The translations under genes and the position numbers were made by a program. Positions 14,973 to 19,590 of a DNA stretch of 34,378 nt are shown here, piece by piece; the first letter of the stretch is position 1, and each line of letters begins with the position of its first letter. The notes beneath the pieces were generated by a model. The model was given only the letters and a program-made list of their open reading frames with translations, ran no database searches and was not told the origin of the DNA. Where the stretch lies: positions 1 to 34,378 of the IMG/VR virus record IMGVR_UViG_3300034284_002572. One strand, 5' to 3'. Source of the stretch: a virus.

Positions 14973-15029
14973 TTAGGTTTTGGGGTATATCTAGTAGAAC
15001 CATCACCACTTTCAATAATGGAGATTAAA

Positions 15030-15557
15030 ATGGCCGAAATGCAACAAAATAGTGGAGCTGTCACAGGCACATCAACCAAAAACAACGGCGGGTCAATTAT
15101 AGCTGGTGGTACAAATCCAAGCAGAAATTTGATCAAGAAAAGTCCAAAAGGTTATGATGTTGGAGTATTCGGTTCTGTGGTTGTTGAGAGTAGTCTAGTA
15201 GGTAACGCAAAAGCCGTTAGCGCTGGAACATTTTCTCACAATCATGTCAAGCCCTTAAGTGCTAAGGTTACAACAGAATTAGCCGGCGTAAATACTAATG
15301 CTTTACTAAAAGCAGACAATAAGGTTACTAGAAGTATCCACAAGATTGAATCTGTAGTTACTAATAGAACAGCTACAGCTTTTAGAGCTGGATTCAACTT
15401 CTATACCGGTAGATTTGTTGGTAGTGTCACAACCGCTACAGATAGTCTTGGTAGTGACGGTGCTGCTAATCCAACAGCCGCAGTTCCAGGTAAATTAACT
15501 TATCAAGTAGGTAATGATGCTACTGTTGTCGCCTATAAGGCAAAGACTTCTGCTTAA
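15030..15557 (+). CDS. Virion-type protein, short paralogue
   Basis: A 175-residue Gly/Ser/Thr/Ala-rich protein, likely a structural (virion surface or fibre) protein. Its whole length aligns with the first ~170 residues of the protein at 16004: both begin MA[EQ]xQQN, then TSTKNxGGS, VGVFGS, and the most conserved block GTFSHNHxKPL. Beta-rich composition, no cysteines and no signal peptide fit a virion protein. ATG 15030 is preferred to ATG 15018 because GGAG (15020-15023) is then correctly spaced and because the paralogue begins at the equivalent residue. A strong hairpin follows the gene, as expected for an abundantly expressed protein. Confidence 0.72.
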   Translation: MAEMQQNSGAVTGTSTKNNGGSIIAGGTNPSRNLIKKSPKGYDVGVFGSVVVESSLVGNAKAVSAGTFSHNHVKPLSAKVTTELAGVNTNALLKADNKVTRSIHKIESVVTNRTATAFRAGFNFYTGRFVGSVTTATDSLGSDGAANPTAAVPGKLTYQVGNDATVVAYKAKTSA

Positions 15558-15646: not shown

Positions 15647-15964
15647 ATGTCAGAAAACATTATTCATTTCTGGGAGAATATTGCAACCACTAGTATCGGT
15701 ATAATTGTTACTATGGTTGGTTTTTGGGTGGCGATAGGAAGAAATATGGCCACAAAATCAGAAGTATTAGTAATGATTGAAACTCAATCACCATATCTTC
15801 ATGATAAACAATTTATTATGGAAAGATTAGCTTCTAATAAAGAAAGTCAAGCAGCTTTTGCTCTAGCTCTTCAAAGAAACACAGAAGTTATGACAGAACT
15901 AAAAATTCAAATAGCGATGCTTGGTAAAACCCTAGAAGCTTTAGAAGATAGAATAGAAAAATAA
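15647..15964 (+). CDS. Small one-pass membrane protein with coiled coil
   Basis: A 105-residue protein. Residues 12-30 (ATTSIGIIVTMVGFWVAIG) form one transmembrane helix, followed by RNMATKSEV and a long helical region (ERLASNKESQAAFALALQRN onward) that ends LEALEDRIEK and is likely a coiled coil. Topology and size resemble phage membrane-tethered proteins such as spanin-, holin- or virion-associated factors. It lies between the two paralogous virion-type genes, so it might be a structural cofactor instead. AGAAAGA (15634-15640) is a weak ribosome binding site. Function is not established. Confidence 0.65.
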   Translation: MSENIIHFWENIATTSIGIIVTMVGFWVAIGRNMATKSEVLVMIETQSPYLHDKQFIMERLASNKESQAAFALALQRNTEVMTELKIQIAMLGKTLEALEDRIEK

Positions 15965-16003: not shown

Positions 16004-17479
16004 ATGGCTCAAATTCAACAAAACGGATCTAATGTAACAGGCAACTATTTTCAAGGAACTTCGACTAAAAACAAGGGAGGATCTGTTGTTAGTGGAGGTG
16101 CTACTTCACAAGAGTTAAGTATTCGTTCTTCTAATAATACTAGTGTAGGAGTTTTTGGATCTACTGTTGCTAATAGCAATATTGTAGGAAATACTAAAGC
16201 TCTATCGTCCGGAACATTTTCTCATAATCATATCAAGCCCTTAACCGCTGGCGTAACATCAGAACTAGCAGGAATAAATAATGCGAATGCTTTTAAAGCA
16301 TCAAACAATACCAATAGAAGTGTCAATAAACTAGAAAATATTATCACAAACAATACTGCTTTTTTGTTTAGAAATAATGGCTTTAACGTCTCTACGAATA
16401 AATACGTTGGAACAGTAAATGATCAAAATGATGGTTTTGGATCTGATAATTCATCTAATACTAATTCTAGCACTAGTAATAAAGTTGCATACAAAACAGG
16501 TAAAAATAGACCAGTTATAGATAATCGTGTAGAAAATTTTGTATCCACCCCAGACAGCACATCAACTCCGTCGCCATCTTCAAATATTAGTCCCACTCCC
16601 ACCCCCACAGTTACTTTAACTCCAAGTGCTTCTCCAGTGGGTTTGGTATCTACAAATAGTGCCAACTATAATAATTGTGCAGGTAAGCCTTCTAGCGTAG
16701 GTACCAACGGTCGAAGCAGTTATTATGGAACATATGATATGTCTGGTAATATTTGGGAATGGCTAGAGACGGGAACAGACGCAAACAACAAGGTTTTAAG
16801 AGGAGGCAATTACGATTATGATGCTTCCTACATTACATCATCTGCTAGAAATTATACAGATAAAACTTCTGCTAATGACTTTTTTGGCTTTAGAATAGCT
16901 GCGTCATCATTACCTTCCGTTTATCCTAATATGGTATTGGTTGGAGACGTTAATAATAGTGCGGACTCTAGTGGATACGGAGCATTATCATATCAATACT
17001 ATATAGGTAGATATGAAGTTACAAATAGTGACTATGTAGAGTTTTTAAATGCTGTGGCACAAACGGATTCCAATGGGCTCTATAATAGCTCTATGAATTC
17101 CTTGTCTGTAGGCGGCATTACCAGAACAGGATCTGTTGGAAGTTACCAGTATGCTGCAAAAACTAACATGGGTAATAAACCAGTGAATTTTGTAAGCTGG
17201 GCAGATTGCGCTAGATATTGCAACTGGCTATGCAACAACAAGCCTTCTGGTGCTCAAACATCTAGTACTACAGAAAACGGAGCTTATGATATGAGCTTAT
17301 CCAATCCTCCACGTAACAATAGCGCTGTTGTTTTTATTCCAACCGAAAATGAATGGTATAAGGCAGCTTTTTATAAGGGCGGATCGACTAATGCTGGATA
17401 TTGGTTATATGCTACTCAAAGCAACACAGCGCCTAATTGCGTTAGTGTTAATACTTCCGGGGACGGTATACCTGTTTAA
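16004..17479 (+). CDS. Virion display protein with circularly permuted FGE/SUMF1 domain
   Basis: A 491-residue protein in three parts. Residues 1-180 are paralogous to the protein at 15030 (shared TSTKNKGGS, VGVFGS, GTFSHNHIKPL). Residues 181-215 are a Ser/Thr/Pro linker. Residues 219-480 hold the FGE-sulfatase/SUMF1 fold, a C-type-lectin-like fold, but in swapped order. The part that normally ends the domain comes first (NSANYNN at 218-224, YGTYDMSGNIWEW at 241-253, VLRGGNY, FFGFRIAAS). The part that normally begins it follows (MVLVGDVNNSAD at 310-321, YYIGRYEVTN, NKPVNFVSWADCARYCNWL at 391-409, FIPTENEWYKAAFYKGG at 444-460). The two pieces meet without visible loss or duplication. GGAG (15994-15997) precedes the ATG. 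Ligand-binding display is likely. Confidence 0.82.
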   Translation: MAQIQQNGSNVTGNYFQGTSTKNKGGSVVSGGATSQELSIRSSNNTSVGVFGSTVANSNIVGNTKALSSGTFSHNHIKPLTAGVTSELAGINNANAFKASNNTNRSVNKLENIITNNTAFLFRNNGFNVSTNKYVGTVNDQNDGFGSDNSSNTNSSTSNKVAYKTGKNRPVIDNRVENFVSTPDSTSTPSPSSNISPTPTPTVTLTPSASPVGLVSTNSANYNNCAGKPSSVGTNGRSSYYGTYDMSGNIWEWLETGTDANNKVLRGGNYDYDASYITSSARNYTDKTSANDFFGFRIAASSLPSVYPNMVLVGDVNNSADSSGYGALSYQYYIGRYEVTNSDYVEFLNAVAQTDSNGLYNSSMNSLSVGGITRTGSVGSYQYAAKTNMGNKPVNFVSWADCARYCNWLCNNKPSGAQTSSTTENGAYDMSLSNPPRNNSAVVFIPTENEWYKAAFYKGGSTNAGYWLYATQSNTAPNCVSVNTSGDGIPV

Positions 17480-17517
17480 TCAACAAAAATATTTAAAACA
17501 AAAGAGGGAATAGAATT

Positions 17518-17754
17518 ATGAATTTTGTACTTAAAGATACGTTAACTATTAATAATTTCATCGTCAAGCTATATCATAAAACTAATGAAGATATAGATAT
17601 GTCTATTGTTAATAGTGCTCTAGTAGATACTGTAGCATTAGACTTTCCTAATAAGATCATAGAAAGACTAGAAAATATTGCCGGTGTATCTAAAGTAGAG
17701 ATATACAATAGCAACAGCGAGTTGTTAATTAATAGTGAAAAAATAACCCTATAA
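17518..17754 (+). CDS. Small phage protein between structural genes
   Basis: A 78-residue soluble protein predicted as a beta-alpha-beta unit: NNFIVKLYHKT (12-22), a helix around DMSIVNSALVDT, and a last strand VSKVEIYNSNSELL. There are no cysteines, membrane segments or catalytic motifs. AGAGGGAA (17503-17510) is an excellent ribosome binding site. Its location between the FGE display protein and the tail-fibre genes suggests a structural or chaperone function, but no family was recognised. Confidence 0.6.
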   Translation: MNFVLKDTLTINNFIVKLYHKTNEDIDMSIVNSALVDTVALDFPNKIIERLENIAGVSKVEIYNSNSELLINSEKITL

Positions 17755-17770
17755 ATTTGGAGAATAAATT

Positions 17771-17992
17771 ATGCCAAGACCATTCACAGATATTACAACA
17801 TCAATTAGTTCTAATCCAATTAAAAATGGCACAGTAATAGCCTCTGCTACTTTTACAGGAAAATATGCTTTAAATAATAGTCATGTTAAAAATACGCCAG
17901 TAATATCCAGCATATCTTCTAAGTATGGCAATAGATTCTATAATGGTATTTTTGTTCAATTGGTTGGCGATCAAACAGTAGTTGGGGGTTAA
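17771..17992 (+). CDS. Small tail/virion-like protein
   Basis: A 73-residue Ser/Thr/Asn-rich protein with alternating small polar and hydrophobic residues (TDITTSISSNPIKNGTVIAS), typical of beta-structured phage fibre or tail proteins. It ends FVQLVGDQTVVGG directly before the ATG of the 17993 gene, so the pair is translationally coupled. GGAG at 17759-17762 precedes the ATG. The exact role is unknown. Confidence 0.58.
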   Translation: MPRPFTDITTSISSNPIKNGTVIASATFTGKYALNNSHVKNTPVISSISSKYGNRFYNGIFVQLVGDQTVVGG

Positions 17993-19225
17993 ATGAGTAT
18001 TAAAAGAATAAATGAATTTCCAGAAGGTAGCGGTAATCTAAGTTCAGATGACGTTTTTCTATTTATGGATAATCCTGCAAATAGTGGAGTCACAAGAAAA
18101 GTTTCATTAAATGAACTAAGTAATGCTATAGGAGTCGTAGGTTCTTCATCGGATAGATTAATTAAAGACAACAAAGAAGTTATACTTAATGGAAATGGTT
18201 TTTTAACATTACCTAGCGGTAGTATACTAAGTGAAACAAATAATACAGTATCCTTAATGCCTCCAACAGCAGCTTCCGGACAGAGCTTGGTAATTCGTCC
18301 AACCGTAGCTCTTTGGCTAATTACTTCTAGTAATTATATCGAATATGGCAATCCTATAACTATTTCAGTAACCCTACAAAGCTGGTCTTATTTTGGAACA
18401 GTCAATTATGTTATTACTGGAACCGGAGTAACTGAACAATCATTAGGTCGAGCACTAACCGGAAAGTTAACTTTCTCAAGCGTCTCTGCTCCAGACACTG
18501 AAACTATCACTTGGACCATACCAGCTAATAGTAGTATCAACGAATTTACTCTTACATTAACAAGTGTTGATGGAACAAGACCGGGTCCAGAGGTTGCAGA
18601 CGCAAACCTTTATCCGACACTATATTACAATTTTGAAGAATCTAATGGAATGCCTACTGGTCAATTCATTACTGTAACTAATAATGGAATATCTAGCTCA
18701 GAACATAGTCACGTTCATCTTGTATCAGGAGATCCCTCAACAGTTGATATTTACTTAGGTGATGATGATCAATATGTTAAGATCGAAAAAGATGGTGGCG
18801 ATGTTATTATCGGTACTGACTTAAATACTCATCTCTGGACTTTTGATACGGATGGTAAGCTAATATTACCAGGAGGATATGCTCAAGTTGTTGTGGAGAA
18901 CGATAGTGGAGTTCGTATTGGAACAGCGGGAACTAATGTTGCTCCTAATAGCCAAATTAAAATTGGCGGTGCTGAACATGCGTTTGAAATCTTCGGAGGG
19001 CCTCCTGGATATAGCTGGGCGTTTGATGGAGATGGTGAACTAACATTACCAGTTAGTGGTAGTATAACATTCCCAGATAATACAACCCAAACTTCTGCTG
19101 GTATACCAAGCAATACTGGATTGGCTCCAAACTCAGTTAGTATTACTAATATGGTTAGTATATCTCAAGCAAACTATGATGCTCTTATTACTAAAAATCC
19201 TACTACTTTGTATGTTATTTCATAA
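17993..19225 (+). CDS. Tail-fibre-like protein with repeated beta units
   Basis: A 410-residue protein. Its N-terminus, IKRINEFPEGSGNLSSDDVF (3-22), followed by DNPANSGVTRKVSLNEL, is the attachment motif common to phage tail fibres. Short repeated units follow: NGFLTLPSGSIL (68-79), WTFDTDGKLILPGG (282-295) and WAFDGDGELTLPVSGSITFP (342-361), each a W-x-F-D-x-D-G-x-L-x-L-P or related strand-turn. Residues 105-195 look like an independent beta-sandwich insert. The C-terminus ANYDALITKNPTTLYVIS is a frequent fibre ending. It presumably contacts the host surface. It shares a base with the next gene's ATG (TAATG). Confidence 0.8.
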   Translation: MSIKRINEFPEGSGNLSSDDVFLFMDNPANSGVTRKVSLNELSNAIGVVGSSSDRLIKDNKEVILNGNGFLTLPSGSILSETNNTVSLMPPTAASGQSLVIRPTVALWLITSSNYIEYGNPITISVTLQSWSYFGTVNYVITGTGVTEQSLGRALTGKLTFSSVSAPDTETITWTIPANSSINEFTLTLTSVDGTRPGPEVADANLYPTLYYNFEESNGMPTGQFITVTNNGISSSEHSHVHLVSGDPSTVDIYLGDDDQYVKIEKDGGDVIIGTDLNTHLWTFDTDGKLILPGGYAQVVVENDSGVRIGTAGTNVAPNSQIKIGGAEHAFEIFGGPPGYSWAFDGDGELTLPVSGSITFPDNTTQTSAGIPSNTGLAPNSVSITNMVSISQANYDALITKNPTTLYVIS

Positions 19226-19590
19226 TGTCTATATTTTTCAACAATTTTGAACTATCTTCTATTAAATTAGGAAACACCAATGTTTCTAAAATATTCTTAG
19301 GCGAAAATTTAGTATTCTCTCTGTGTCCCGATTCAACTTCTAGTGTTAAGATGACGGGATGGGTTTCTGGTGATCGAATTCTTGCTCCTATAGGATACGC
19401 CCCTTATGGGCGTGAGACTTATATATACGGTGATGAGGTTGTCCGTTATGAAACGGGCGTATGGCTCTATATGAACACTAGTGTAGAACTTGCTAGAGCA
19501 TATAGTTACGCAGAATGGCCTTGGTTAGTAGATTGGCCATCCCCATATGCTGCTGAGAAAGTTCGTCAAGACGGCACATCATGCATATAA
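19225..19590 (+). CDS. Short fibre-associated protein
   Basis: A 121-residue protein beginning FELSSIKLGNTNVSKIFLGE (8-27), the repeated I-x-L-G-x-x-x-V-x-K-I-x-L-G motif common in tail-fibre and structural proteins of environmental phages. The remainder is aromatic-rich (GYAPYGRETYIYGDEVV, then WPWLVDWPSPY), suggesting a compact tip or adhesin domain. It starts within the stop of the fibre gene (TAATG) and is followed by a 105-base gap with a promoter motif, so it ends the tail-fibre unit. Specific function is not known. Confidence 0.68.
   Translation: MSIFFNNFELSSIKLGNTNVSKIFLGENLVFSLCPDSTSSVKMTGWVSGDRILAPIGYAPYGRETYIYGDEVVRYETGVWLYMNTSVELARAYSYAEWPWLVDWPSPYAAEKVRQDGTSCI

Follow-up and report, generated by a model that had tools for sequence, protein, structure and literature searches.

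The gene at positions 16,004 to 17,479 of IMG/VR virus record IMGVR_UViG_3300034284_002572 raises the question of whether a virus can carry a known fold with its two halves in exchanged order, and of what such a protein would be for. The FGE fold is well known and C-type-lectin-like. Domains of this fold are a common scaffold for ligand binding in phages and bacteria and for retroelement-driven diversification, and to our knowledge those described share a single chain topology. The initial annotation had proposed that the gene encodes a circularly permuted FGE/SUMF1 domain on a virion-type scaffold. The window, i.e., the whole stretch of DNA analysed (positions 1 to 34,378 of the record, 34,378 nucleotides, one strand), is a phage fragment with head-maturation-protease-like, class II ribonucleotide reductase, PhoH, RecA-like, DnaB-like, and sigma-factor genes. 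The features relevant to the question are the following.

15018..15557, + strand: stand-alone paralogue of the N-terminal module, kept in related viral contigs
16004..17479, + strand: whole gene, encoding an N-terminal module, a Ser/Thr/Pro linker, and a circularly permuted FGE-fold domain (translation, Pfam)
16004..16516, + strand: N-terminal module, residues 1-171, duplicate of protein 15018-15557 (49% identity, 1.2e-42)
16517..16654, + strand: Ser/Thr/Pro-rich linker, residues 172-217
16655..16906, + strand: C-terminal part of the FGE domain, placed first, residues 218-301 (profiles; structure model)
16907..16927, + strand: new junction SLPSVYP uniting the old C- and N-termini, residues 302-308 (7 residues)
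16928..17434, + strand: N-terminal part of the FGE domain, placed second, residues 309-477 (profiles; structure model)
17435..17476, + strand: C-terminal tail NCVSVNTSGDGIPV, 14 residues, first half of the opened loop
17993..19225, + strand: neighbour gene with a C-terminal Phage_tail_C (tail tip) domain (PF24243, 2.4e-06)
19225..19590, + strand: 121-aa protein, matching over its entire length the N-terminus of a permuted-FGE protein in virus L105 (2e-61)

The open reading frame translates into 491 amino acids without an internal stop. FGE-sulfatase (PF03781) was the only family listed for the whole protein in the Pfam scan; the match (8.4e-22) is split over two stretches, and its score of 78.5 bits against the curated cut-off of 23.3 places the protein in the family. 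The motifs of the C-half (YYGTYDMSGNIWEW...RGG...GFRIAAS) stand ahead of those of the N-half (NMVLVGD...EVTN...CARYCNWL...ENEWYKAAFYKGG...ATQSNTAP). The exchange had been placed at residues 219-300 and 309-480, which is correct to within a few residues. Both halves are full length, so that the fold is complete, and neither a second N-half upstream nor a second C-half downstream was found in the 491-aa protein. For the N-terminal module and its stand-alone paralogue, no match was obtained in Pfam, PHROG, or PDB; relatives of the module are present in other viral contigs.

The same order was then sought in other phages and found on many independently assembled viral contigs. The first viral contig scan returned L001, with the same order at 60% identity and a different N-terminal module, and when viral contigs were scanned with the alignment of the two sequences, all of the ten loci recovered were permuted. 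Later viral and bacterial scans were made order-agnostic by using the N-half alone and the C-half alone, and distinct ORFs were classed with separate profiles. Among viral ORFs from the N-half-only scan, 49 were CN and 8 CNCN versus 3 NC. For the refined census, performed after one further scan, three sub-profiles were used: a and b for the N-half, which was divided in two, and C for the C-half. The distinct viral units comprised 106 Cab, 7 abC, and 3 bCa, plus partial units; the bacterial units were abC (116 single) and abCabC (9 tandem), with no Cab, a ratio that holds for the family of the window domain rather than for all viral FGE domains, as candidates were sampled in order of their similarity to the window. 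Viral FGE domains farther from this family may be canonical. L165, counted among the seven viral abC proteins, looks by its sequence like a PEP-CTERM protein of bacteria, signal peptide included, and is possibly not viral.

Searches of whole records pointed in the same direction. A full C+N profile matched all 23 viral records searched, mostly over nearly its whole length (positions 1-284) and with scores of up to 433 bits. The highest copy number was ten permuted-unit matches in one 152-kb viral record, and several contigs that carry permuted units exceed 200 kb. Among the strong matches listed for 392 planctomycete and 386 cyanobacterial genomes, none covers the full profile; they span the N-half and reach slightly beyond it at most. 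Compact matches of ~705 bp had hinted at bacterial loci sharing the permuted order; they proved to be tandem canonical domains. No tblastn match was found in GenBank phages for the window protein (1e-5) or for a second unit, L088 (1e-3), nor any match in the BFVD viral structures at E ≤ 0.001. In the open-access literature subset, no publication was found that describes an FGE or C-type-lectin fold of phages in permuted form, and circular permutation of the FGE fold was not reported in the papers searched. The fold itself is known; what is new is its topology in the permuted units. Profiles and structure searches that depend on sequence order recognise only one half at once, and permuted domains are therefore easily missed in annotation.

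A fault of assembly or binning that exchanged two parts of the gene is practically excluded, together with chance: L001 has the order as well, and so do dozens of contigs assembled from different metagenomes, among them separately assembled ones with matching genes such as L089/L090. The order is thus real, and the build that had been called unusual is rather the rule in viruses of the window's group.

The ends of the viral units reveal where the chain was opened. Cab units start with NxANYN (N(S/T)ANYN) and finish with ...TGDG, and in ordinary bacterial proteins the passage from segment b to C is one unbroken loop, e.g., ...ATANATGDISNAGPNVANYNFGADWNG. The opening therefore lies in the loop before the YGTYDxSGNxWEW motif, and the ends of the viral units match this one continuous loop, which bears out the earlier suggestion that the halves are complementary with nothing missing. 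The gap from C to N inside the viral units is mostly 6-15 aa, larger in some that carry an insertion. Successive units in one viral protein are up to hundreds of residues apart (e.g., L109, L131), and several viral proteins start just 2-14 residues ahead of the C-half. The short internal gap, the long spacing between units, and these starts together argue that permuted units are separate modules.

Structure prediction led to the same result. AlphaFold2, supplied with an alignment of 87 permuted units, folded the permuted chain into one compact domain with a mean pLDDT of 96.3 and a pTM of 0.94. Foldseek, which needs sequence order, gave weak partial matches to FGE-family chains. With VIA-align, model residues 1-90 aligned to human FGE 253-371, S. 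coelicolor FGE 188-305, CalU17 176-307, and Mtd, and residues ~88-277 to T. curvata FGE 12-214, S. coelicolor FGE 20-220, SUMF2 27-220, and PvdO 30-202. The first part of the model thus corresponds to C-terminal parts and the second to N-terminal parts of solved FGE-family chains, which is the signature of permutation. The Z values of 5-7 are modest, as expected when one half is alignable at a time. The solved FGE-family sequences listed are in canonical order, and positions 27-92 of the C-half profile match near their C-terminal chain ends.

Two other readings of the exchanged halves were weighed against these data. Bacterial abCabC tandems hold the same C-then-N neighbourhood internally, and the window protein might accordingly contain two incomplete FGE domains next to each other, left over from a tandem array, instead of one fold. 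We give almost no credence to this reading: the predicted model is single, compact, and confident, the units are bounded on both sides by linkers or protein ends, no half is truncated or missing, and the pairing is kept in 106 viral units. Alternatively, the C-half of one chain could complete the N-half of another, so that the functional fold would be intermolecular. Such a domain-swapped multimer would suit the short C-to-N junction (6-15 aa) and the oligomeric nature of many adhesins, and the prediction covered one chain only; however, that single chain was predicted to be complete (pTM 0.94) and nothing in it forces swapping, which makes the swap very improbable. With relatives, profile order, and structure prediction in agreement on circular permutation, it is close to certain that the window protein contains one complete, permuted, single FGE-fold domain.

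The closest cellular relatives of the viral units are bacterial FGE-sulfatase/SUMF1-like proteins (PF03781) of Planctomycetota, Verrucomicrobiota, and others. They share ~40-57% identity over the N-half and the same motifs, but all classified units are canonical, often in tandem, and a permuted unit was not found among them. We infer that the permuted domain arose through tandem FGE duplication. A canonical domain would have been duplicated and the outer halves lost, leaving a single C-N domain in which a short linker unites the old termini and the chain is opened at the loop described above. Bacterial tandem canonical FGE proteins with similar short C-to-N linkers do exist; the linker between most of their repeats is 12-15 aa long, close to the viral gap, which fits a tandem origin with loss of the outer halves. 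In a quick tree of 184 rows, one branch (SH-aLRT 98) parted all permuted units from all canonical units, bacterial and viral. The split was unsupported in a reduced tree of 89 rows, where one order change still suffices. Natural circular permutations have been described for favin/concanavalin A, saposin/swaposin, and DNA methyltransferases, along with a permutation-by-duplication route (PMC3320104). These are the same kind of rearrangement, and the saposin/swaposin pair also shares the tandem-duplication route proposed here. The viral FGE units differ from the published permutations in having several different cut points within one family. A phage virion protein with rearranged fold topology is also known from BPP-1, whose major capsid protein has a rearranged HK97 fold (PMC3863775); that rearrangement is non-circular, unlike the one in the viral FGE units.

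Concerning function, an FGE-type enzyme activity is not expected. Human FGE (SUMF1), bacterial FGE, PvdO, and EgtB share the fold and core motifs with the viral units and differ from them in their canonical order; EgtB-type sulfoxide synthases have an iron-binding DinB-like N-terminal domain. FGE has a copper-binding catalytic cysteine pair in its C-half. None of 91 viral units has this pair at the aligned positions, and none has two cysteines in that stretch; an FGE enzyme function was therefore rejected. The bacterial relatives likewise lack the catalytic cysteines.

The most variable stretch of the viral units is RGG..GFR, with an entropy of 3.2 versus 1.6 bits. Its counterpart in the variable proteins of DGRs (TvpA 2y3c, Mtd of phage BPP-1, TaqVP), which belong to the same C-type-lectin fold family, is the variable region, the known binding region of these proteins. 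In the DGR proteins the order is canonical and the variable region lies at the C-terminus, whereas RGG..GFR is internal in the window protein. Mtd serves phage BPP-1 in receptor binding, and a likeness to it is given by relative L150, which carries Mtd_N and a phage tail repeat in the same protein as the permuted unit. The RGG..GFR stretch is equally variable in the bacterial relatives, and its variability alone is therefore no proof of receptor selection. A reverse transcriptase (RVT_1) was found neither in the window nor in 37 viral records, which may be fragments, and no DNA repeat of the C-half was found within the window.

The permuted units belong to adhesin-like proteins with Ser/Thr/Pro linkers. 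In other viruses they follow N-terminal modules of quite different kinds or have none, and they share proteins with RCC1, Laminin_G_3, and DUF642; in relative L152, a long-tail-fibre PHROG occurs in the same protein. These fusions, together with the neighbour genes, make the virion-type scaffold of the initial annotation plausible in an indirect way, while the N-terminal module itself matches no known family. A viral placement search with the T4-type capsid profile PF07068 gave no match even in the control genomes and is therefore uninformative. At the syntenic place, the close relatives L084/L085 are without the window stretch 16004-19590, and a permuted FGE protein is encoded at another place of the L085 contig, which points to an exchangeable adhesin cassette of which the permuted-FGE gene is probably a part. 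A 105-aa protein encoded at 15647-15964 of the window occurs in >15 related viral contigs, often adjoining the gene of the N-terminal module; it has no PHROG match and could mark the window's virus group.

A receptor- or sugar-binding role of the permuted domain, as suggested earlier, is plausible in the same indirect way. The N-terminal module and the flexible Ser/Thr/Pro linker would tether the domain to the virion, and the non-enzymatic domain would use its hypervariable RGG...GFR face to bind a ligand, which is probably a glycan or protein on the host surface. It could instead be a structural or decoration module (a spacer or a head/tail ornament), or act outside the virion as a phage product. 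Such a role would agree with an N-terminal module without known family and with the many copies per virus (10 in one record). We consider it unlikely, since relatives pair the domain with lectin-like, adhesin-like, tail-fibre, and Mtd_N modules and the variable stretch lies where DGR proteins have their binding region. A virion-adhesin role of the window protein is moderately likely. The explanation as a whole, a phage adhesin-type protein with a permuted, non-catalytic, ligand-binding FGE domain arisen by tandem duplication, appears likely to us.

The loop before YGTYDxSGNxWEW is not the only site at which viral units are cut. The additional cut points are as follows.

L115:4534-5430; L292:3992-4939; L247:5782-6675: b-C-a order, cut just before the ...WIPTENEWYKA motif
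L296 ORF at 1857; L300 ORF at 3449: cut inside segment b

The b-C-a order occurs in three distinct viral proteins, those of L115, L292, and L247; L294 and L307 are near-copies of L247. In L296 and L300, the protein ends with ...EWYKAAYYLPTV (after EWYKAAYY), and the missing piece YATQSDSAP stands ahead of the C-half. In addition to the canonical order, the viral set therefore contains at least three permuted topologies (b|C, with 106 units; a|b; inside b). For the b-C-a domain of L115, modelled from an alignment with extra rows consisting of unaltered C-a and b-C fragments of relatives, a pLDDT of 91.9 and a pTM of 0.91 were obtained. Residues 1-167 of this model aligned to C-terminal parts of the same solved FGE-family proteins with Z values of up to 11.5. 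The b-C-a units fall at two places among Cab units on the 184-row tree, which weakly suggests later re-cutting.

Uncultured phages may maintain and disseminate a permuted class of the FGE/C-type-lectin fold that is specific to viruses, and may continue to re-cut it, with different exit points re-orienting the binding face on the virion; we offer this as a tentative idea that is rather doubtful at present. If true, topology shuffling would be a means of adhesin diversification without a retroelement. Viruses have rewired the FGE fold in at least three ways, most likely for display on the virus particle. The virus-specific class with its secondary cut points provides natural material for the study of fold permutation, and it would show in what way a binding domain comes to be mounted anew on a stalk in phages.

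Some proteins exhibited further unusual architectures. In the long ORF of L168 / L218 (one contig), residues ~837-1400 seem to hold a canonical a-b-C domain inside a loop of an outer permuted C-a-b domain. The units in ORF 1587-5933 of L092 and L095 and in ORF 1-3540 of L093 carry ~270 residues inserted between the C-half and the N-half, where the old termini lie; in Pfam, this insert is without a match. In ORF 2-4090 of L123, a permuted domain is directly followed by a canonical one in a single protein, and this canonical domain groups with planctomycete domains, as if separately captured.
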